Below, in pieces: positions 1 to 11,996 of a stretch of DNA of 11,996 nucleotides. Source of the DNA: Desulfobacula sp. (GTDB lineage Bacteria; Desulfobacterota; Desulfobacteria; Desulfobacterales; Desulfobacteraceae); NCBI GenBank assembly GCA_027858355.1, contig JAQICW010000210.1, positions 1-11,996 of the forward strand. The letters run 5' to 3'. The position numbers and the translations under genes were made by a program. How positions within the stretch are numbered: the first letter of the stretch is position 1; the number at the start of each line of letters is the position of its first letter. The notes beneath the pieces are model-generated. The model searched no databases and was not told the origin of the DNA. It was given only the letters and a program-made list of their open reading frames with translations.

Positions 1-300
1 CCCATCTACTGCGTTGCACCAAAGGCCTAATACGTATACTATTAAACATTTGATGCGCCTTGTAGATGAACCAAAATCCTGCGCTATTTCTGCTCAATTT
101 ATTTCATTTGAGGTCCTTAGTCAAATGTCATTTTGTTACGTACAGATTATCCACTGCATGATTATTCATGGCCCCGATAAATTGTGGATACCATTACTAT
201 TCAAAACCTGATATGGTCGATTTGTTCAGGGATGATTGTTGCAAAATGGTTGATATTTGGATATTGTCATGATTGATATAAAAAATTCCAATTCTGGGTT
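1..300. other. Non-coding left flank
   Basis: No ORF here looks like a protein; the only open frame (14-211) has no recognisable motif and no ribosome binding site. The stretch is AT-rich. It carries two near-consensus DnaA-box-like 9-mers in opposite orientation, TTATCCACT at 147-155 and TGTGGATAC at 183-191, which may be chance. The far left (5-68) has a weak inverted pair, atctac and gtagat, of unknown meaning. Confidence 0.5.
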
Positions 301-466
301 ATATGGTCAGATATCATTCAAATATACAAGATGGACGGAACCACACATTAATTCGTTCCCGCCGCTGCGCGGCGGGAACGGCCCGGGTCAGCCGCCCTTG
401 CGAAGTTGCCGCTTGGGCGGGAACAATCCGGTTCCATCCGACTTTCGCGGCTGACCCGGGCCGTTA
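301..466 (+). repeat. Left copy of 166-bp structured inverted repeat (MITE-like)
   Basis: This element has two parts. Positions 301-354 are an AT-rich arm, and 355-466 are a GC-rich core. The core begins with a perfect 11-bp hairpin (355-365 with 369-379, loop TGC). A perfect 19-bp stem follows: AACGGCCCGGGTCAGCCGC (377-395) pairs with 447-465. Inside that stem, 396-446 can form smaller hairpins such as GGAAC/GTTCC around 420-435. The core matches 3023-3134 in reverse complement at 111 of 112 bases; the one difference lies around 441-446. The arm matches 3135-3188 at about 39 of 54 bases, including a perfect outermost 13-mer, ATATGGTCAGATA. Its inner end, GTTATGT (463-469), doubles as an attC-like core site only 15 bp upstream of the methyltransferase start. 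Confidence 0.9.
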
Positions 467-484
467 TGTATTTAAGGATTACAT

Positions 485-1648
485 ATGAACGAAAGCATAC
501 TAGTCCAGCAAATTAGAAATCGATTAAAAGGGATCTCTTTTAAGGTTCAGTTGCCCAACGGACGTGACTGGAAGTTTGGGGACAACGATCCCTCATTCAC
601 TGTTAAAGTCAACGATGAGAGCGTTTTATCGGCTTTTATGCGCTTTGATGAGTTTCGCATTGCTGAAGCGTACATAAATGGTGATTTGGATGTGGAAGGT
701 GATATGTGGGGTTTTGTGAGTTGCCGCGAATCCTTGCGAGATATACATCCGCTCTACTATGTTTGGTGGCGAGTTTTGCCATTGCTTGTTGGGCAGCTGC
801 GAACGAATAGACACGCAATATCAAATCACTATGAATATGATAATGACTTTTTTCTCAGTTTTATGGATCCAAGCCGTTGTTATTCACAGGCTTTATTTGA
901 ACATGACGATGAATTACTGGAAACTGCCCAAAAACGGAAATTGGATTTTGTGGTTAAAAGCTGTGGTCTTAAAGCGGGTGACCGCGTGCTGGATGTTGGC
1001 GGAGGCTGGGGAACATTTGTCGAGCACGCCGGGAAACAGGGAATCCATGTAACAGCCCTTACACTCGCCAAGGAGTCTGAAGAATATCTTAACGATCTTA
1101 TTCACCGGCTTCAATTACCCTGCAAAGTAAAATTCGGGGATTTTTATGAGTACGAATCATCCAGACCCTATGATGCTATCGTTATACTTGGCGTAATGGA
1201 ACACCTTCCTAATTACACTTCTGTACTAAAACAGTTCGAGCGTTTGTTGCGACCTGGCGGCAAGATATATCTTGACGCTAGCTCTTATAAAAGAAAATAT
1301 TCCAAACCCGCTTTTATATCTCGCTACGTGTTTCCAGGAAATCATCGATACTTTTGTCTGCATGAATTTCTGACTCAAGTCGCAGACACAAATTTCGAGG
1401 TGAATAGTATTTTCAATGATCGCCATAGTTATTATCTAACATGTCGGGAGTGGGCAAAAAATCTGAAATCATCACGTGAGAAAATAGTTAAACGCTGGGG
1501 GGAAAGGCTTTACCGAACTTTTCGGCTCTATCTTTGGGGTTCTTCCTATGCGTTTTTTAGTCATAACATGGATGCTTTTCGGGTTGTTTTGGAACGTCCT
1601 GAGGACAGGTCTCGCATCAGTTCTTGCACTGAAATGCAGTATAAGTAA
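485..1648 (+). CDS. Cyclopropane-fatty-acid-synthase-like SAM-dependent methyltransferase
   Basis: This 387-aa protein has the layout of the CFA synthase / mycolic acid methyltransferase family, which moves a methyl or methylene group from SAM to unsaturated acyl chains of membrane lipids. Visible motifs are the substrate-side HYEYDNDFF (115-123), CYSQALFE (132-139), the SAM loop VLDVGGGWG (168-176), the acidic-loop GVMEH (236-240), YVFPG (281-285), SYYLTCREW (315-323) and RLYLWG (347-352). Length is close to E. coli Cfa (about 382). In Cfa and CmaA1 the YSCAY motif carries the bicarbonate-binding Cys. Here it reads YSQAL, so that Cys is Gln, and the HY of HYxxTxxxW is SY. The product may therefore not be a cyclopropane. 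The ATG at 485 has AAGGA (474-478) at good spacing. The start lies 15 bp after the attC-like 7-mer at 463-469, as expected for a gene cassette. The gene converges on the permease. Confidence 0.85.
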   Translation: MNESILVQQIRNRLKGISFKVQLPNGRDWKFGDNDPSFTVKVNDESVLSAFMRFDEFRIAEAYINGDLDVEGDMWGFVSCRESLRDIHPLYYVWWRVLPLLVGQLRTNRHAISNHYEYDNDFFLSFMDPSRCYSQALFEHDDELLETAQKRKLDFVVKSCGLKAGDRVLDVGGGWGTFVEHAGKQGIHVTALTLAKESEEYLNDLIHRLQLPCKVKFGDFYEYESSRPYDAIVILGVMEHLPNYTSVLKQFERLLRPGGKIYLDASSYKRKYSKPAFISRYVFPGNHRYFCLHEFLTQVADTNFEVNSIFNDRHSYYLTCREWAKNLKSSREKIVKRWGERLYRTFRLYLWGSSYAFFSHNMDAFRVVLERPEDRSRISSCTEMQYK

Positions 1649-1683
1649 CGGAATTATATTGCTGCGCGAGAAACGTCAATGAA

Positions 1684-1743
1684 ACATAACAAACCCATCA
1701 AACCGACGCTGAAAAGCAGCGCGGTTTATGGGTGACGTTAGAC
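1684..1743 (+). other. Integron attC recombination site
   Basis: This 60-bp imperfect palindrome lies between the two convergent genes. The R'' box is ACATAAC (1684-1690) and the R' box is GTTAGAC (1737-1743), which fits the GTTRRRY consensus. An unpaired spacer (1691-1692 opposite 1734-1736) follows, then the L stem ACCCAT/ATGGGT (1693-1698 with 1728-1733). An extrahelical C is at 1699. AAACCG/CGGTTT (1700-1705 with 1722-1727) comes next, then an extrahelical A at 1706, CGCTG/CAGCG (1707-1711 with 1717-1721) and loop AAAAG. Both bulges are on the 5' arm and are six bases apart, as I recall for the aadA cassette attC, where the context is also CCGaCGC. Cleavage would fall at 1737/1738. This orientation makes the + strand the top strand and the methyltransferase the normally oriented cassette gene. 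A bidirectional terminator is the main alternative, but it does not explain the boxes or bulges. Confidence 0.8.
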
Positions 1744-1755
1744 CCAAGTGCATTC

Positions 1756-2964
1756 TCAACTATTAGTAACAAGAAACACGGCCAAGCCGACAAGCAATAC
1801 TGTCAGAAACAACAATGCAATGATCCGCTTCGGACCGATACCTCCTTTCATATTCATCTTGTGATCCATGTGTGCCTCGCGGTGGTGCCGCCGGTGCAGC
1901 CAAAAAAGACCTGCTGCCACGGCAAGAAACACGACGTTCATATAGAAGGTATAGTCAAAGGAAAACTGAGCGACATCAGCGACCTTACGGCCGCTTTCGG
2001 GGGTAATGCCGAGCGCCTCGAACAGGTAATTCAGGATCAACGCCGTTGCAACGATGCTCACATACATCACAGCGGCGATGTAGAGCGCTACCCGCCAACC
2101 GTAGTACTTGGCATTGATCACCACCAGTGGCGGCTTCATCAGATCCGAATAAATGAAGCCTATGATGCCGGCAAACAACACGCCATTGGCGTTCAGCACC
2201 GTGGCAATGGGAATGTTGCCCATCGATCCGATGAAAGTCATAGCCGCAACAAACGGTGCTATTGCTGCATTCTCAAGCGCGATCAACCAGTCCGGCAGAT
2301 CGCCGTGCGCACCGTTCAGGAAGATACTTTCCCATACCCCGGTCGGCACCAGCACCGCCACGAATCCGGCGACAGTGAAGCCAATGAGTATCTCCTCCCA
2401 GACCATTTTCCAGTCCGAGACGAAGCTGTGGCCCACGAGGTTCCAGCCTTCACGGCTACGGATCCGGCGACGCCAGTCAAAGTCCGACTCCTCGTCGCCA
2501 GCCTGATTTTCCACCCTCTCGCGAACTTTTTTGACCCAGCGTTTCGGGTAGGTCAGTTTGATGAGAACGCTGATGATGCCGATGAGAATCAGCCCGCCGA
2601 TAACCTCTGCGGCCAGGAACTGCCACCCCAGAAAGATCAGGATGAGAATTCCGAGTTCAATGACCAGATTGGTTGAAGCAAACATGAAAGCAACCGCCGC
2701 CACGAAGTTGACGCCCTTGAGCACCAGTGAGCGGGCAGCCGTAAGCGCACCAAGCGAACAAGATGAGGAAGCCGCGCCAAAGAGCGTTGCGAGCGATACA
2801 CTGGTGAAGTTAGCCTTTCCCATGTAGGGCGTCAATCGACCCTTCGGAACGAACGCCTGGATCATTGCACTAACCCAGTAACCCAATATGAAAGCCCAGC
2901 CGGATTTCCAGAAAAATCCAAACGAAGTCTTAGCAGCTTCGCCATAGAGTTGCCAAAAGTTCAT
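1756..2964 (-). CDS. ArsP/YraQ-type (DUF318) membrane permease
   Basis: This 402-aa polytopic inner-membrane protein belongs to the permease family that includes the organoarsenical efflux pump ArsP and YraQ. Two family signatures are clear: GAASSSCSLGALTAA (63-77, with Cys69) and FIGSMGNIPIATVL (244-257), each inside a hydrophobic stretch. Roughly eight to ten membrane segments can be seen, with a charged cytoplasmic-type linker at 138-175. Before the last segment lies a His/Met-rich loop, residues 357-372 (HRRHHREAHMDHKMNM), which could bind a metal. The substrate cannot be named from sequence; arsenicals, metals or other small solutes are possible. The ATG at 2964 is firm, because the minus strand carries AAGGAGG (2970-2976) 5 nt upstream. 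Base composition is clearly more GC-rich than the methyltransferase, so the two genes probably have different origins. It runs against its neighbour, and its upstream region starts at the right-hand repeat. Confidence 0.88.
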   Translation of the reverse strand: MNFWQLYGEAAKTSFGFFWKSGWAFILGYWVSAMIQAFVPKGRLTPYMGKANFTSVSLATLFGAASSSCSLGALTAARSLVLKGVNFVAAVAFMFASTNLVIELGILILIFLGWQFLAAEVIGGLILIGIISVLIKLTYPKRWVKKVRERVENQAGDEESDFDWRRRIRSREGWNLVGHSFVSDWKMVWEEILIGFTVAGFVAVLVPTGVWESIFLNGAHGDLPDWLIALENAAIAPFVAAMTFIGSMGNIPIATVLNANGVLFAGIIGFIYSDLMKPPLVVINAKYYGWRVALYIAAVMYVSIVATALILNYLFEALGITPESGRKVADVAQFSFDYTFYMNVVFLAVAAGLFWLHRRHHREAHMDHKMNMKGGIGPKRIIALLFLTVLLVGLAVFLVTNS

Positions 2965-3022
2965 ACTTGCCTCCTTCTACTGCCATCATGCTCTGCTATC
3001 ACGAAGGTAGCCTCTGTGGGTC

Positions 3023-3188
3023 TAACGGCCCGGGTCAGCCGCGATAGTCGGATGGAACCGGATTGTTCCCGCCCAAGCGGCAACTTCGCAAGGGCGGCTG
3101 ACCCGGGCCGTTCCCGCCGCGCAGCGGCGGGAACAAGAGATTGTACAGTTCTGTTCATCATGTATATCTCGATGTTATCTGACCATAT
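3023..3188 (-). repeat. Right copy of 166-bp structured inverted repeat (MITE-like)
   Basis: This is the reverse complement of the element at 301-466. The GC-rich core is 3023-3134 (111 of 112 bases identical) and the AT-rich arm is 3135-3188 (about 72 per cent identical). The 19-bp stem (3024-3042 with 3094-3112) and the terminal 11-bp hairpin (3110-3120 with 3124-3134) are both intact. The inner boundary reads GTCTAAC (3020-3026), a perfect RYYYAAC inverse core and the exact complement of GTTAGAC at 1737-1743. The core lies about 60 bp upstream of the permease start, so it could also influence that gene's transcription. Confidence 0.9.
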
Positions 3189-3384
3189 GTCCAAACATTT
3201 TCATGGTTTCAGTATTTGTGCAAGGAGAATATGAACACATGGTCCTGATCGTGTTCCAGTACAAAACTGCTGGCCCTTTAAATCTGTTTAGATAACGGGA
3301 CGTAAGACCTTCTTTATTCAGCCCATGTATGATAAAAAAATCCATGACATCAACAGCAGATAGGAACTTACCGGCAAACAAACA

Positions 3385-3855
3385 ATGAACGAACCGAATT
3401 GCTATTGCGGAAGCCAAAAAAATTATAAAGACTGCTGCCCGCTTTTTTTGACCGGAACATCAAAACCGGAAACACCAGAACAGCTGATGAGATCCAGGTA
3501 CTCAGCCTTTTGTATCAAAGACATTGAGTATCTGATTTCAACACATCACCCTTCCAGGCGGCAGGCCAATGAACGGGATCTGTTAATAAAAACAATCCAT
3601 GAGACCCAATGGCTTGGTTTGAAGATCTTGAAAACAGAAATAGATCCGGAGGATCCGCATATCGGTTATGTTGAGTTTGCCGCCTTTTACCAAAACACGG
3701 AGATCGGCCAGCTGCATGAAAGATCAAGATTTATCCATGAAAACGGTAAATGGTATTATCTGGATGGTGAGTTTATGCAACCTTTGGTATTCGGACGTAA
3801 TGATCCCTGCTGGTGCGGCAGCAACAAAAAGTATAAAAAATGCCATGGGCGTTGA
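3385..3855 (+). CDS. ychJ: YchJ family protein with two SEC-C zinc motifs
   Basis: This 156-aa protein is close to the length of E. coli YchJ (about 152 aa) and has the same plan. An N-terminal SEC-C zinc-binding motif, CYCGSQKNYKDCC (6-18), comes first. A central NTF2-like domain contains the family signature PEQLMRSRYSAF (about residues 31-42). A second C-terminal SEC-C motif, CWCGSNKKYKKCHG (about 142-155), ends the protein. SEC-C motifs bind zinc with three Cys and a Cys/His and often mediate protein contacts, as in SecA. The biochemical role of YchJ is not established. The ATG at 3385 lacks a clear Shine-Dalgarno at normal spacing, yet the motif starts only five residues in, so the start cannot be much later. 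It appears to be a single-gene unit with 195 bp of non-coding DNA after the right repeat and over 350 bp after the stop. Confidence 0.88.
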   Translation: MNEPNCYCGSQKNYKDCCPLFLTGTSKPETPEQLMRSRYSAFCIKDIEYLISTHHPSRRQANERDLLIKTIHETQWLGLKILKTEIDPEDPHIGYVEFAAFYQNTEIGQLHERSRFIHENGKWYYLDGEFMQPLVFGRNDPCWCGSNKKYKKCHGR

Positions 3856-4542: not shown

Positions 4543-5610
4543 ATGCATCATGTCATGATTCATCCCGCCACTTACGAAACCTGCCGCAAAGCCGTTGAGA
4601 AATCGTTTGAACTGTTTCCCATTGAGATCACGGGGAAAAAGGTGGTGATCAAACCCAATGTGCTCCGTCTCTCGGAAGCCCGGGAGCATGTCGTGACCCA
4701 TCCGGCTGTTCTTAAAGCTGTAGTGGAAAAGGTTGAAAGCCTGTCCCCGGAACAGATTATCGTGGGTGATAATCCCGGGATGTTCAACTATGGTGATAAT
4801 GAAAACAGCTTTGAGAAAACCGGCCTGATGGAAGCGGCCAAAGGGTACTACCGAAACCTTGGCAATTCCCCGGTACCGGTGGTCTTTAACCCGGAATTTA
4901 TACCGAAAGTCGGGGTTTCCAAAGAGATCCTGGAGGCCGATGTCGTGATCAGTCTGCCCAAGTTCAAGACCCATGGATTGACCGTGATGACAGGAGCCAT
5001 CAAGAACAGCTACGGATTCCTTCCCGGCGCCCAGAAAGCCAATCTGCACCGGATTGCCGGAACTCCGGAACGGTTCCATGAGGTGATCGTGGAAGTGTTC
5101 CGTCTCCGGGTTCCGGACCTGTTCATCATGGATGCCGTGGTGGGAATGGAGGGCAACGGTCCGGCTTCACCGGATTTAAGGGAAATCGGCCTGGTTCTCG
5201 CATCGGACAATGCCGTTGCCCTGGACGGCACTGTCGCCCGGATGATGGGGCTCGATCCCGGGGCATTGAAATTTTTGCGGAAGGCAAGGGACATGGGGCT
5301 TGGAAAGTTTGATGCGGACCAGGTCCGCATTGACGGCGAGCTTAAGGTAATTCCCGGTTTCAAACTGCCTCCCCTGGGCGGGGAAGCCATTGCTGGGAAT
5401 ACGCAGATCCAGGAGTTCATGGAAGCCCGGCTAAAGGTCCGGCCTAAGGCCGATCCTGAACGGTGCACGGCTTGCGGGGCCTGCGTGGATCAATGCCCGG
5501 TATCTGCCCTGTCCATGACCGATACCGTTCCGGTAGTAGATGAAACGCTTTGTATCACCTGTTTCTGCTGCCAGGAAATCTGTCCGGAAAAAGCCATTTC
5601 TCTCACATGA
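4543..5610 (+). CDS. DUF362 protein with C-terminal two-cluster ferredoxin domain
   Basis: This 355-aa cytoplasmic protein has an N-terminal DUF362 domain (about 1-290) with the recognisable stretches KKVVIKPNVL (about 32-41), IIVGDNPGMF and LPKFKTHGLTVMTGAIKNSYG. A 2[4Fe-4S] ferredoxin domain follows, with cluster-I ligands Cys308, 311, 314, 318 and cluster-II ligands Cys337, 340, 343, 347; Cys342 is an extra cysteine inside the second motif. Such proteins are common in anaerobes, particularly sulfate reducers, and are presumed electron-transfer or redox enzymes. The reaction is not known from sequence. The ATG at 4543 is preceded by AAGGA (4531-4535) at 7-nt spacing. An 8-bp inverted repeat begins inside the last codons (5599-5634) and may end the transcript. 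Nothing looks truncated. Confidence 0.87.
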   Translation: MHHVMIHPATYETCRKAVEKSFELFPIEITGKKVVIKPNVLRLSEAREHVVTHPAVLKAVVEKVESLSPEQIIVGDNPGMFNYGDNENSFEKTGLMEAAKGYYRNLGNSPVPVVFNPEFIPKVGVSKEILEADVVISLPKFKTHGLTVMTGAIKNSYGFLPGAQKANLHRIAGTPERFHEVIVEVFRLRVPDLFIMDAVVGMEGNGPASPDLREIGLVLASDNAVALDGTVARMMGLDPGALKFLRKARDMGLGKFDADQVRIDGELKVIPGFKLPPLGGEAIAGNTQIQEFMEARLKVRPKADPERCTACGACVDQCPVSALSMTDTVPVVDETLCITCFCCQEICPEKAISLT

Positions 5611-5802: not shown

Positions 5803-6413
5803 ATGTGCGGCAGATTCTCACAGAACATAACACTGGAGCAGATCCAGCAGCATTTCCCTGTTGATGTCATTACCTGTGAACTGGAGCCCAGGCCGGAAGT
5901 GTTCCCTTCCCAGCAGGTGCTGGCAATCATCATGCATGAATCCAAAATGCGCCTGGGCAATTTGAATTGGGGCCTGACCTGATACCGTCTTGGGCCAAAG
6001 AAAAGAAAGGAACCGGTCATATCAATGCCAGGATGGAGACCCTGGACCTGAAGCCCAGCTTCAGGGGGTCGTTTAGGAAACGGCGGTGTCTTATTATCGG
6101 GGATGGATACTATGAATGGAAATCCGATCCTGACAAGAGCAACAGAAAGACCAAATATTATTTTCAGGTACCAGACAAAGCCCCGTTTGCATTTGCAGGG
6201 TTATGGGATACATGGCAGAAAGATTATCCCGGCTGTGCCATTATCACCAAAGATGCAGTGGGAGAGGTCAGGGATGTTCATGACCGGATGCCTTGTGTTT
6301 TGAAGCCTAAAGCATATGGAGAATGGCTTGATCCTGCAAACCTGGATGTTCATGGGTTGAAGGTGTGGCTGAATACTTGTTGTGTGGATGATTTTGTAAT
6401 ATCGAGAACATGA
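5803..6413 (+). pseudogene. yedK: SRAP domain protein (YedK/HMCES family), frameshifted
   Basis: The family forms a thiazolidine crosslink to abasic sites in single-stranded DNA through Cys2, shielding them during replication. Here the first frame (5803-5982) starts MCGRFSQN, with Cys2 in place, and runs to NLNWGLT then TGA. The second frame resumes with LIPSWAKEKKGTGHINARMET and continues to 6413. The family expects WGLIPSWA. The sequence holds CCTGA twice in tandem (5973-5977 and 5978-5982). Removing one copy restores a 201-aa protein with Cys2, the NAR Asn73, the YYEW Glu103 and the DVHDRMP His158. All key residues thus survive, so the break looks recent. The C-terminus is also short of the usual PVS-type ending. 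The ATG has AAAGG about 10 nt upstream. A sequencing error or recoding cannot be excluded. Confidence 0.85.
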
Positions 6414-6805: not shown

Positions 6806-8575
6806 CTAATCTAAAGTCCACAATGCTCCTATATCAACATCCTCACTATCTGGCCGCTTTGTTTTTTCCAATCGGTCTACTTGCAATACCATTGGTAAAT
6901 CAAACGACGTTCCTGTTACAATACAACTACCTTTCGATAAGTTTGGAATTAAACTTCTGGAAAGACTGTCCAAAGTGCTAATTGTATTATCTACAAGGAA
7001 CAAATCTCGATCATTCACTAATCGATGAATAAAGAAATTATGAAGTTGCGAAATAATGGTGGGGGAAATATCTGCTGGCCTTTGGCTTGAAAGGGTAATA
7101 AACATTCCAAACTTACGACCCTCTTTAATTATCTCCTCAAATAGTTCCAATCTGTAATCCTTCCAACTTTCATGTTCTCTTGAGGACTGCTGAGAAAGAA
7201 TATTATGTGCTTCATCAATGATCAAGTGCATCGTTTTATTGATTGGGTTTTTTACATCGCGTTTATGCAGATGATAAAAATGTTTTGCAATCAATAAAGG
7301 TAATACTTTTTTAATCTCTTGATTGCATTTTCTTAAAGAAATAACTGACAATAACTTGCCTTCACTTCGATGATTTTCAATACTGACTACTTTTCTTAAA
7401 TTCAATAACGAAGACTCGATTCTTTTTAACAACGGTTGAATATGTTCAAATTGGACATATCCATAAATCAGATCTCTAATCAATTGTAAGTTAGATCTGA
7501 TAACCAACTCATCAAATGAATCTAACTTATCAGTCGCTATCTTATCTACCTCAGTTCTCAAAATTGCGTCATATGCAACGCCATCAGCGTTGAAATACAA
7601 ACCAGATCTAACAAAAGTATTGTTTTTTCCACCCATCCATTTGATTTCCTTGAGCATATCACTGAGAACATTTGCACTTAAGATCTTCACGACATTTCTA
7701 AGTAAATCTAGCGTATCTGCTTTAGGAGAAGCGGCAGAAAAGACTGCTTTAAATGTTCCTTTAATATAGTTCAAAAGGCTATTCGGTCTATCTACAAACT
7801 TCTTTCTTCCATTGATGATGCGGTTTAAAAATGGGCGCTGAGTGTTGGTAGTTGCTTGGAAAAGGAGACTAAGAGTCTCAGAGTTCCAAAACTCATCTTC
7901 ATACAAGGGAAACTTATCTTCCCCTGTGGTTTGAGTATTTAGACGCAAAGTTGTTTTATGCTTACCAGACACCAACTGGTCAGCAGTATATTCTCCATTG
8001 AAATCAATAATAACGAATTTACTTTTATTGCCAACGGCATTCAGTTTTTGTTCGAAGAGTACAGTATACAGTTTGGCTAAAGTGTTTGATTTTCCACTAC
8101 CTGTATTTCCAAAAATACCAATGTGGCTGTTAAAAAGTTTTTGCCACGGAAGAGAGATTGGAATCTCTTCCTTAAGCATTTTTCCGATAACAAAGCCCTC
8201 AATATGGCCTCGACTATAGATTTTAGATATTTTCTCCTCCTGAAGAAGAAAAGCGAAGTCTTTAATCATGGGAAGGAATTTTATTCCTTCATTAAATTGA
8301 TCATGCTCAAAATACCCGATAGGCTTAGCTTGTACTTTTCGAATATAATATGTTTTGTTTCTCTCTTCTTCAAATCTGTTCTCATCAAGGTATTCTCCCT
8401 CAATAATACAAACAATATCTCTAAACCCACGTTGAATAAATATATATTCTCTTATTGAGACACCTTTATATTTTTGACCATCGTAATAAAGGGTGTCTTT
8501 ACTCGATTCTTCAAATATCTTGATGGTCACGTTGACACCATTTACAGCGATAACCTCACCGATCCTAATTGTCAC
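6806..8575 (-). CDS. herA: HerA-type hexameric ATPase of a SIR2-HerA defence system
   Basis: This 589-aa protein has the HerA/FtsK-like ATPase plan. An N-terminal HAS-barrel-type region (about 1-90) precedes Walker A GNTGSGKS (156-163). The conserved IIDFNGEY (189-196), Walker B LIIDEAH (451-457), SQRPADISPTIISQ (497-510) and HRLVN with Arg518 (517-521) follow. A long family-specific insert occupies about 220-440. HerA proteins assemble as hexamers that translocate DNA. In reported SIR2-HerA systems the hexamer scaffolds SIR2 subunits and the complex degrades NAD+ and DNA during phage infection. The start is GTG (8575-8573), and its TG forms the stop TGA of the SIR2 gene, so translation is very likely coupled. 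The gene is AT-rich compared with 4543-6413, which suggests acquisition. Its stop is TAG at 6806-6808, with no convincing terminator after it. Confidence 0.9.
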   Translation of the reverse strand: MTIRIGEVIAVNGVNVTIKIFEESSKDTLYYDGQKYKGVSIREYIFIQRGFRDIVCIIEGEYLDENRFEEERNKTYYIRKVQAKPIGYFEHDQFNEGIKFLPMIKDFAFLLQEEKISKIYSRGHIEGFVIGKMLKEEIPISLPWQKLFNSHIGIFGNTGSGKSNTLAKLYTVLFEQKLNAVGNKSKFVIIDFNGEYTADQLVSGKHKTTLRLNTQTTGEDKFPLYEDEFWNSETLSLLFQATTNTQRPFLNRIINGRKKFVDRPNSLLNYIKGTFKAVFSAASPKADTLDLLRNVVKILSANVLSDMLKEIKWMGGKNNTFVRSGLYFNADGVAYDAILRTEVDKIATDKLDSFDELVIRSNLQLIRDLIYGYVQFEHIQPLLKRIESSLLNLRKVVSIENHRSEGKLLSVISLRKCNQEIKKVLPLLIAKHFYHLHKRDVKNPINKTMHLIIDEAHNILSQQSSREHESWKDYRLELFEEIIKEGRKFGMFITLSSQRPADISPTIISQLHNFFIHRLVNDRDLFLVDNTISTLDSLSRSLIPNLSKGSCIVTGTSFDLPMVLQVDRLEKTKRPDSEDVDIGALWTLD

Positions 8576-9723
8576 GCAGGCACCTCTACTTCATGAGCAA
8601 TAGGCTCCTTGGCTTTGGGAGCAATTGTGAACACTCCTTCGTTAAACGCATTAAAATCAAGATTACCATCAACGATTATATACTCCACATTTTTATAAAT
8701 CTTGAAATATTCCTGCATGATCGATAGTTCTAACTCATTGAAACAACACACGAAGAGTTGTAATGTTGGATTAGAAAGAGACCTTTTAACTAGGTTTAAA
8801 ATATGTTCGTCCGAAAAGGAGAAGCCAAAAGTAATGAACACAGAGTTTGGCTTTTCAAGTTCATAGCTTAAAAGCCGTAACATTTGGTAGTAGTGTTCTT
8901 CAAATACTGTTTCGTGAAATTTCCATTTGGTGGGATTAACTATTGGAAGATTATTATAACTTTCCCAAAACATCCCTTTTTCGATATCACTTAGTTTGTA
9001 TTCTGAAAAATCATCAATAGTCTTGTTCTCACTTAACAATAGCTCTGAAAAGCCCTTCATATTTTGAAATATATCTGCTTGTATTATCCGATTTTCATTT
9101 TTTGTCGAATAATCAACGCGGATACTTTCAACATCCTTATACCAGTAAACTGATCCATGAACATGAATGAGATTTATCTGTGGTACATCCGTATGATGGC
9201 GCTCAAAGATACCGGTTTGGCATACAAAACTATTGAAGTTTTTCGCCTGAAGATAGCGTCGACTGAACCCCCTAGCACCATCATTAACTACGAAATCAAC
9301 ATGTCCACGTCGTATTAGTTCATCAGCGACATGAACGAAACATCCATCATAGTTGGTAGTAAATATATTACAGCTTTTCTCAAAATCCTTTCGACGTTCC
9401 AAAATGATTAGTATGGTCTCTATAAATTTCCTATAGTTTTCGACTACTATTTTCTGACTGCTATCTGCTTTAGCTATCTCTAAATCGAATAACATTGCTG
9501 GTTCGATACACGTTTTGTAATAATGCATGAATAATAGAGTATAGAGTGGGCCTTCTTGCTTTTGACCAAAGCGTGTTGCTAATGTTTCGACTGTTTGTTC
9601 TTTTCCTTGTTCATCCTTTATTTTGAGAGCCAATGTTGGAAAAAGCCCGAATGACGCTCCTGAGCCTATCAAGAAGTTAATGTTTTTATCGTAAATATCA
9701 TTAAGACTAATTTTTTCGACCAT
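8572..9723 (-). CDS. SIR2-like NAD+-hydrolysing effector of a SIR2-HerA defence system
   Basis: This 383-aa protein has a SIR2-like (SIR2_2 type) fold. The NAD-binding loop is NFLIGSGAS (16-24). The TTNYD motif (122-126) supplies Asn124 and Asp126, and VHGS (188-191) supplies the catalytic-type His189. IVNPTKWKF (261-269) and FGFSFSDEHI (299-308) are the late family motifs. In known systems the SIR2 protein is an NADase that empties the cell of NAD+ once phage is sensed, held in check by the HerA partner. All expected catalytic residues are visible, so it should be active. The ATG at 9723 follows a G-rich GGGGG on the minus strand about 4-8 nt upstream. It is the first large gene of the unit, overlapping herA by 4 bp. 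A 33-codon ORF lies 118 bp upstream on the same strand. Confidence 0.9.
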   Translation of the reverse strand: MVEKISLNDIYDKNINFLIGSGASFGLFPTLALKIKDEQGKEQTVETLATRFGQKQEGPLYTLLFMHYYKTCIEPAMLFDLEIAKADSSQKIVVENYRKFIETILIILERRKDFEKSCNIFTTNYDGCFVHVADELIRRGHVDFVVNDGARGFSRRYLQAKNFNSFVCQTGIFERHHTDVPQINLIHVHGSVYWYKDVESIRVDYSTKNENRIIQADIFQNMKGFSELLLSENKTIDDFSEYKLSDIEKGMFWESYNNLPIVNPTKWKFHETVFEEHYYQMLRLLSYELEKPNSVFITFGFSFSDEHILNLVKRSLSNPTLQLFVCCFNELELSIMQEYFKIYKNVEYIIVDGNLDFNAFNEGVFTIAPKAKEPIAHEVEVPA

Positions 9724-11515: not shown

Positions 11516-11609
11516 AAAAATATCAAATCACAGCATATGGTATTGGGGATTTTTTTATTATCAGGCCGCCGGGGAAACATAATTTGAGAATAAGTTTATT
11601 GTAAAGTGG

Positions 11610-11996
<387 letters not shown>

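Follow-up and report, generated by a model that had tools for sequence, protein, structure and literature searches.

The two 166-bp inverted repeats of the window (the whole stretch of 11,996 nt that was analysed) each probably consist of an integron attI-type site and a 108-bp cassette without a gene, joined at G|TT, so that two platforms would lie head to head. Sequence comparison shows arm and core to be separate modules that meet at G|TT, and the window appears to read attI>mini-cassette>CMAS>attC<permease<mini-cassette<attI, with attI-L, a mini-cassette and the CMAS cassette contributed from the left, attI-R, a mini-cassette and the permease cassette from the right, and the two sides meeting at one attC (Table 1). 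No intI was found within the window.

Table 1. Predicted features of the window and the evidence for each.
Feature	Positions (nt)	Strand	Basis
Leader 5' of left attI	146–298	+	like the leaders at other arm copies; inferred role as promoter
Left attI-type site, crossover G355|T356	299–355	+	arm profile, E 2.6e-18; family alignment; 3' half adjoins intI elsewhere
Left gene-less mini-cassette, 108 bp, crossover G463|T464	356–463	+	identity limits, copies, fold
11-bp perfect hairpin, opening of mini-cassette	355–379	+	fold
attC-like palindromic stem-loop	377–465	+	19-bp perfect stem AAC...GTT, without extrahelical bases; sequence, fold, 13-copy pair count
CMAS gene cassette, TTATGT ... attC ... 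G	464–1737	+	start complementary to R''; attC
CMAS, cyclopropane-fatty-acid-synthase-like methyltransferase	485–1648	+	PF02353, E 2.2e-51
Central attC, canonical for CMAS cassette	1684–1743	+	attC scan, fold
Permease cassette, read from right attI	1738–3025	-	opening bases TTAGAC at 3025–3020
ArsP-like permease	1756–2964	-	PF03773, E 5.1e-53
Right gene-less mini-cassette, 108 bp	3026–3133	-	111/112 with left copy across 112 bp
Right attI-type site, crossover G3134|T3133	3134–3190	-	arm profile, E 3.8e-13; 70.7% to left site

A repeat search of the window returned one inverted pair of 177 nt (290–466 and 3023–3199, 88% complementary), the second-longest pair being only 29 nt. The original prediction described a two-part repeat with 112-bp cores differing by one base, 54-bp outer arms about 72% identical and a perfect outermost 13 bp, and base-by-base alignment agrees: 111 of 112 bases are alike in the core (355–466 versus 3134–3023), 39 of 54 in the arm (301–354 versus 3188–3135), 13 of 13 at the outer tip, and 150 of 166 across the entire repeat. 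The internal boundary is real and lies at G|TT. The identity step starts at G355|TT and stops at GTT(A)466, and both limits have the form of an integrase crossover, which bears out the suggestion that the core ends in attC-like core sites; as a description of the layout, the hybrid-looking design is also supported. The perfect tip is no special terminus, being a conserved stretch within the arm family when copies from other genomes are aligned. As single-stranded DNA, each core folds far better than its dinucleotide shuffles whichever strand is taken (z -6.5 to -7.5), and none of 200 shuffles folded as well.

Judged by its sequence, the arm resembles the attI site of an integron. Arm family matches occur in 57 of 86 genomes of the family to which a related Desulfotignum genome belongs, at 1–27 matches each, and are few elsewhere in the phylum (7 of 297 genomes, one of them the seed genome). 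The copies are solitary, typically end in CTTG|TT, and are each followed by a different gene or ORF. GTT occurs at arm positions 53–58 in 41 of 64 copies, compared with 33 of 317 shifted windows, and the sequence beyond differs; like attI, the arm copies combine a G|TT crossover with variable cassette starts. A same-strand ORF of at least 90 aa lies within 150 nt of 44 of 62 arm copies (580 of 1260 random positions), and one of at least 90 aa lies on the upstream side in only 4 of 34. Window positions 146–218 and 186–351 align to loci L015 and L009, immediately upstream of the arms there. Perfect stems of at least 7 follow 3 of 64 arms (two being those of the window) and 3 of 21 intI-side sites, and a hairpin behind attI was discarded as a general rule.

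In three genomes (G042, G066, G004) the 3' half of the arm lies upstream of an above-cut-off intI in divergent orientation, at distances of 95, 100 and 241 bp. Among 25 regions upstream of long intI genes, the strongest half-profile match came from this half on the expected strand, adjacent to intI and directed outwards, in 19 and on the other strand in none; eight of the 19 matches have E<0.01, eleven are weak (E 0.03–5.3), and six regions gave none. With the full-length profile the best match was on the expected strand in 16 regions, on the other strand in eight and absent in one, while a strict motif was present in 6 of the 25 regions (expected strand) and at 2 of 27 short-intI loci (either strand). 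The window and most solitary arms have no adjacent intI. Orthologous loci of two genomes, G066 and G067, are 95.7% identical until the CTTG|TT of one attI, after which the cargo differs, being a mini-cassette in G067, and they converge again at an attC. Cargo is also swapped between orthologous loci of G039 and G051, which converge at GTTGGAAC/GTTAGAAC. Identity between attI-L and attI-R is 70.7%, compared with 69.0–93.1% for 30 within-genome pairs of other genomes, three of which are as low, and a between-genome mean of 73.2%.

In the sequence examined there are 16 copies of the core, of which eight lie directly behind an arm, with the joint exactly at G|TT in seven and reading CTTG|CT in the other (L107). 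Each module is also found without the other; the core is neither confined to this locus nor always independent of the arm, in line with the original prediction. Like a gene-less cassette, it is a discrete unit between two crossover sites with an R'' complementary to its own start, and a second mini-cassette family follows the same plan, with compensatory changes between start and R''. The extrahelical bases of attC are absent, the 19-bp stem being fully paired in both window copies. When 13 of the 16 copies were aligned (the partial L090, L091 and L103 were left out, and a relative of L018 was set aside), the stem was paired in 90.9% of cells, compared with 90.0% in shuffles, 29 of 500 of which reached 90.9%; for the alignment of cores, RNAalifold favoured a different structure, with a covariation term that was unfavourable. 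Of the causes first offered for the uneven divergence, a young core beside older arms is favoured, and selection on the core fold is weakly supported. A scan of the genomes with the 19-bp core pattern gave 17 loci, of which four (L004, L009, L015, L016) align along the repeat; the other 13, with repeat matches absent or of at most 36 nt, were dropped. The core was not found in the phages searched, nor the core and arm patterns in the viral contigs searched, and a 196-bp query against plasmids gave five short matches (E 0.05–0.6).

The CMAS cassette has the features of a gene cassette, with its start, TTATGT, complementary to R'' (ACATAAC, 1684–1690) and, by eye, an extra C in the left half of the central attC, which is an imperfect palindrome. 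Background for the attC scan was four shuffled hits per 409,646 bases at the same threshold. The right end of this attC, GTTAGACCCA, also supplies the opening bases of the permease cassette. Close CMAS relatives were found in none of the 86 family genomes at the strict cut-off of E<=1e-80 and permease relatives in one (45% identical, E<=1e-60), and the closest protein-database entry to CMAS is 95% identical.

We infer that an integrase encoded elsewhere in the genome placed a mini-cassette into both attI sites, or that one copy converted the other, which would explain why the cores are 99% alike and the attI sites 71%. That would account for the uneven divergence: the attI sites would be old and distinct from each other, and the cassette shared only recently. 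The head-to-head junction may, more tentatively, have arisen through a top-strand cut in the permease attC, at R'', followed by joining to R' of the CMAS attC.

A single ordinary plus-strand array is rather unlikely. In it, attI-L, a mini-cassette and CMAS would be followed by a cassette with a reversed permease and with the right core, taken on the plus strand, as its attC, and the right attI would be an inverted remnant next to the array. The central attC carries a perfect GTTRRRY when read on the plus strand, with the extra base in its left half, and the right core on that strand has an R'', GTCTAAC, complementary to TTAGAC. Against this, the order leftward from the right attI (attI, mini-cassette, ribosome-binding site, gene) is that of G067, G001 and G003, and the right core passes at G3134 into an inverted attI; a close permease cassette bearing its own sense-orientation attC after TGGGTCTAAC would be incompatible with such an array. 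A dispersed repeat of the family with a promoter or regulatory function, related to attI by descent yet not in present use by an integrase, and with cargo changed by other recombination, is an improbable reading of the arm. Three observations favour such a repeat: a search of the 5 kb downstream of 28 arms gave an attC candidate for only 6, cassette-like at L083, L086 and the window centre and otherwise the core itself or chance; the copy-rich genomes G085, G039 and G051 have no intI at E<=1e-75; and a promoter-like TTTACA...GATAC is, by eye, conserved upstream in G085. The first two also count against the attI reading, as do the lack of intI in the window, the weak or absent intI-side matches, the core stem without extrahelical bases and the greater divergence of the right attI. 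Against such a repeat, the break falls at G|TT at both of the orthologous loci with swapped cargo, the mini-cassette is attached to arms of different genomes at an identical position, and arms are commoner in genomes with long intI (22 of 24, versus 35 of 62 without, in classes drawn up by the analyst and with intI-side copies possibly among the matches).

Duplication of one 166-bp unit in inverted orientation, with later gene conversion keeping the core alone alike, is very unlikely. The window cores do agree at 99.1%, slightly above their identity to any of the other 11 aligned copies (77.5–98.2%), but the attI pair falls at the low end of within-genome pairs and near the between-genome mean, a G039 copy resembles the left attI more (87.9%) than the right attI does, and the identity step lies exactly at the crossover. 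Least credible of all is a MITE-flanked composite transposon carrying cassettes. The inverted layout and perfect outer 13 bp recall such an element, and the original prediction compared the layout with MITE-like elements that mobilise cassettes. The data do not support arms as MITE or transposon ends: arms are usually single, before many different genes, with a facing partner within 4 kb in 1 of 25 copies having at least 4 kb of downstream sequence, namely the window's left copy. The eight window ORFs scanned contain no transposase domain, no target duplication was seen by eye beyond a palindromic ATAT, and the 3' half of the arm is common to the intI side.

The usual picture of an integron has a single integrase, a single attI and a single array. 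The two platforms proposed here share with sedentary chromosomal integrons (intI, attI and array) an attI-type site, the G|TT crossover and cassettes with attC, and intI adjoins a similar site in related genomes; unlike those, the attI here is solitary, present many times per genome, without adjacent intI and head to head. MITE-like structures are reportedly found flanking a class 1 integron (Gillings 2009), also as inverted repeats around cassettes, whereas the arms here match attI, are mostly single and have an IntI crossover as inner boundary. CALINs are attC clusters without an integron integrase (PMC9668308), resembling this locus in having none, but here attI is kept and attC is usually undetectable; and cassettes without ORFs have been observed (PMC8618304), which, like the core, are cassette-sized units between crossover sites, although the core is multi-copy, conserved, a near-perfect palindrome without extrahelical bases, and often in position 1 behind attI. 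The Delta-attI cassettes of mobile integrons carry truncated attI pieces at the cassette end (PMC12901181) and so also place attI sequence outside its usual place, whereas the arms here are solitary upstream platforms. No report of dispersed solitary attI was found among the open-licence papers searched.

Similar, solitary attachment sites, as predicted from sequence, are scattered through the genomes of related sulfate-reducing bacteria. One possibility, put forward tentatively, is a distributed integron, in which a trans-acting integrase would serve many solitary promoter-attI pads, and in which the mini-cassettes (108 and ~164 bp, two families of one design) would be an integrase-spread counterpart of MITEs, usable both ways without strand-setting bases, so that arrays join head to head. 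If true, the scattered attI sites would form a genome-wide capture network, each captured gene lying beside its own promoter, and most of these loci would escape searches based on intI or attC, because few show a recognisable attC. Unpaired attC bases are held to choose the strand, and since the palindromic mini-cassettes are without them, they would directly test what sets cassette orientation.

The repeat search returned a single outstanding inverted pair in the window, and the identity profile originally predicted for it held on position-by-position comparison: the inner 112-base cores differ at one position, the outer 54-bp arms agree at 39 (about 72%), and the outermost tip is identical over 13 of 13 bp. 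Identity steps up sharply at G355 and high identity stops with GTTA at 466, both limits having the form G|TT. Between two such crossovers lies a gene-less 108-bp unit (the mini-cassette); its first bases are TTCCCG, to which its R'' box, CGGGAAC, is complementary. That prediction attributed the uneven divergence to gene conversion, to selection on the folded core or to a young core within an older repeat. As single-stranded DNA, both cores form much more stable folds than shuffled sequences; across 13 aligned cores the 19-bp stem has 90.9% of cells paired and three both-sides changes, while shuffled cores give 90.0%, 29 of 500 reaching the observed percentage and 7 of 500 the covariation score. 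Neither conversion nor fold selection is needed on the reading given below: the two attI sites (attI-L and attI-R) are 70.7% identical and the two mini-cassettes 99.1%. Elsewhere, 30 within-genome attI pairs range from 69.0 to 93.1% (mean 82.4), three being as low as the window pair, and the between-genome mean is 73.2.

A 19-bp core pattern scanned against 84,980 species (one genome each) gave 17 loci, of which four were real relatives, titled Desulfobacterales, Desulfobacteraceae and Desulfotignum. The repeat matched all four of these genomes and, in the family to which the Desulfotignum genome (G001) belongs, taken to be Desulfobacteraceae, 15 of 86 genomes at E<=1e-5. Comparison of these sequences showed arm and core to be separate modules. 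Sixteen core copies, some partial, were found in the sequence examined (including locus L018). An arm immediately precedes eight of them, weakly matched at L088 and L103, with the junction at G|TT in seven; three, all from one orthologous locus (L085, L087, L099), have no arm. At L085 two such copies stand inverted around a 3.1-kb stretch of genome G066 that is missing at the orthologous G073 locus, a second inverted-core arrangement besides that of the window.

The arm is probably an attI-type site, judging from its 3' half and from orthologous loci, and the core a gene-less cassette. Aligned arms read about TTATCTGGTCAGATATCATTCAAATTTACAAGATACACAGAACCACACATTAACTTG|TT, followed by differing sequence. 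Of 64 copies (window, L015, L083-L149), 41 have GTT somewhere in arm positions 53-58, vs 33 of 317 shifted windows. The set is biased: regions were mostly picked for matching, some adjoin intI, L147 and L148 are near-identical, and 25 of the 64 trained the profile. A same-strand ORF of at least 90 aa starts within 150 nt after the arm in 44 of 62 cases vs 580 of 1260 random positions; on the upstream side the figure is 4 of 34. The 3' half lies 95, 100 and 241 bp upstream of an integron integrase gene (intI) in genomes G042, G066 and G004, respectively, pointing away from the gene, which in each case scores above the TIGR02249 cut-off. Such genes are present in 45 of the 86 family genomes in two forms, the long one (profile match running to 313; open frames of 411-488 aa in most cases) being assigned to 24 genomes by our own classing. 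Sequence upstream of intI was taken from 20 long-form loci, several of them truncated at contig ends, and from five further ones. A 3'-half profile trained on no intI-side site placed its best match on the expected strand in 19 of these 25 regions and never on the opposite one (8 at E<0.01, 11 weak, 6 regions without match). The full-length profile was less strand-consistent (16 expected, 8 opposite, 1 none), so what is shared is the arm's 3' half as far as the crossover.

Exchanged cargo at orthologous loci likewise agrees with attI. Genomes G066 and G067 are 95.7% identical across the 5.85 kb that ends at CTTG|TT of a shared attI. Behind it lies the mini-cassette in G067 and a different cassette in G066; homology resumes at an attC (98.7% over 3.6 kb). 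In G039 and G051 differing cargo, presumably DUF262-like in the former and DUF4238 by domain scan in the latter, follows the same site, and homology resumes at GTTGGAAC/GTTAGAAC; the G039 crossover reads TTTGTACGG. In G066 and G067 a tyrosine-recombinase-like ORF adjoins attI sites, together with an ORF that we take to resemble an IS91-type transposase.

A sequence-only model built from 24 arms matched at least 57 of the 86 family genomes at E<=1e-3, with 1 to at least 27 matches each. Seven of 297 genomes in a phylum sample matched at E<=1e-4 (six matches in the seed genome, one weak match in each of six others), in a less sensitive search (18 vs up to 62 candidates scored per genome; tighter cut-off). 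Matches occur in 22 of 24 genomes with long intI, as classed by us, vs 35 of 62 others (p 0.002), an association confounded by unfinished genomes and intI-side copies. Pfam was run on 30 of the 41 first genes behind arms: nine had no match at E<=1e-5, and the matches include acetyltransferase, cupins, methyltransferases, DUF4238, caspase, an AbiJ domain, an AAA_13 ATPase and an FRG protein. Of seven genes run through PADLOC, four hit models for defence or candidate-defence systems. What speaks against the attI reading is the scarcity of downstream attC and the arm-rich genomes lacking intI. Candidate attC sites lie within 5 kb downstream of 6 of 28 arm positions, and among these six only those at L083, L086 and the window centre look like attC of cassettes; at E<=1e-75, intI is absent from three of the four most arm-rich genomes (G085, G039, G051) and present in the fourth, G041. 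In G085, 24 aligned leader-plus-arm copies have mosaic leaders, and in some the similarity sets in immediately before TTTACAG, which may be a -35 box. Two arm-like copies in G001 have a YchJ-like gene nearby and face away from it, as attI-R does in the window.

A second gene-less family has the plan of the core and an unrelated sequence. Its units, about 164 bp and palindromic, occur at the intI-side attI (G031, G032, G053) and many other places, with matches, often partial, in 32 of the 86 genomes; G060 has seven, of which six fall in the 41 kb that follow an intI gene. Longer copies mostly start (G/A)TT and end ATTA ahead of a gene. Start and R'' co-vary (TTCACG/CGTGAA, TTCATG/CATGAA, TTCTCG/CGAGAA, TTCCAG/CTGGAA), and 118 of 132 positions pair among 12 distinct heads, that of L222 hardly at all. 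A free circular cassette needs this pairing, since its attC consists of R'' and the cassette's own first bases.

Coordinates of features in the window and in related loci
Locus	Position	Strand	Feature
Window	355-466 and 3134-3023		inverted cores
Window	3385-3855		YchJ-like gene
Window	6806-8575 and 8572-9723	-	HerA-like ATPase adjoining SIR2-like protein
Window	11545-11996	+	bacterial 23S rRNA match
L085 (G066)	6126-6211	-	core without arm
L085 (G066)	7956-8031	+	core without arm
L109 (G001)	4817-4873 and 5914-5957		arm-like copies
L143	2674-4661		tyrosine-recombinase-like ORF and neighbour
L086	9861-11817	-	tyrosine-recombinase-like ORF and neighbour
L095, L113-L117, L119-L136 (G085)			leader-plus-arm copies
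L190	380-590	-	second-family copy
L193, L194, L205, L206-L223			second-family copies

The window reads as attI-L, mini-cassette, CMAS (cyclopropane-fatty-acid-synthase-like methyltransferase) cassette, one attC, and then, all reversed, ArsP-like permease, mini-cassette and attI-R. The inward order on each side (attI, mini-cassette, gene) recurs in G067, G001 and G003, and the attI-plus-cassette part of this best reading is likely to be correct. For the CMAS cassette the central attC is a canonical one. The ten bases with which the permease cassette opens recur at the right end of this attC, GTTAGACCCA, which can therefore also serve as the permease cassette's R''. A single strand exchange at R'' rather than R' would yield a head-to-head array sharing this attC. 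Such a fusion is possible but somewhat doubtful: a review (PMC8946536) gives the bottom strand an advantage of about 1000-fold in recombination efficiency, so such events should be rare. The rival is that the permease is a reversed gene inside an ordinary second cassette.

Further along the window, the HerA-like and SIR2-like genes match the PADLOC HerA and SIR2 defence models, and the 23S rRNA match, only 452 bases yet spanning most of the model, is thus a fragment or decayed copy. The attI, attC, ORF-less cassettes and integrase-less arrays of the best reading are known parts; a search of open-licence literature turned up neither dispersed solitary attI nor mini-cassettes of this kind.
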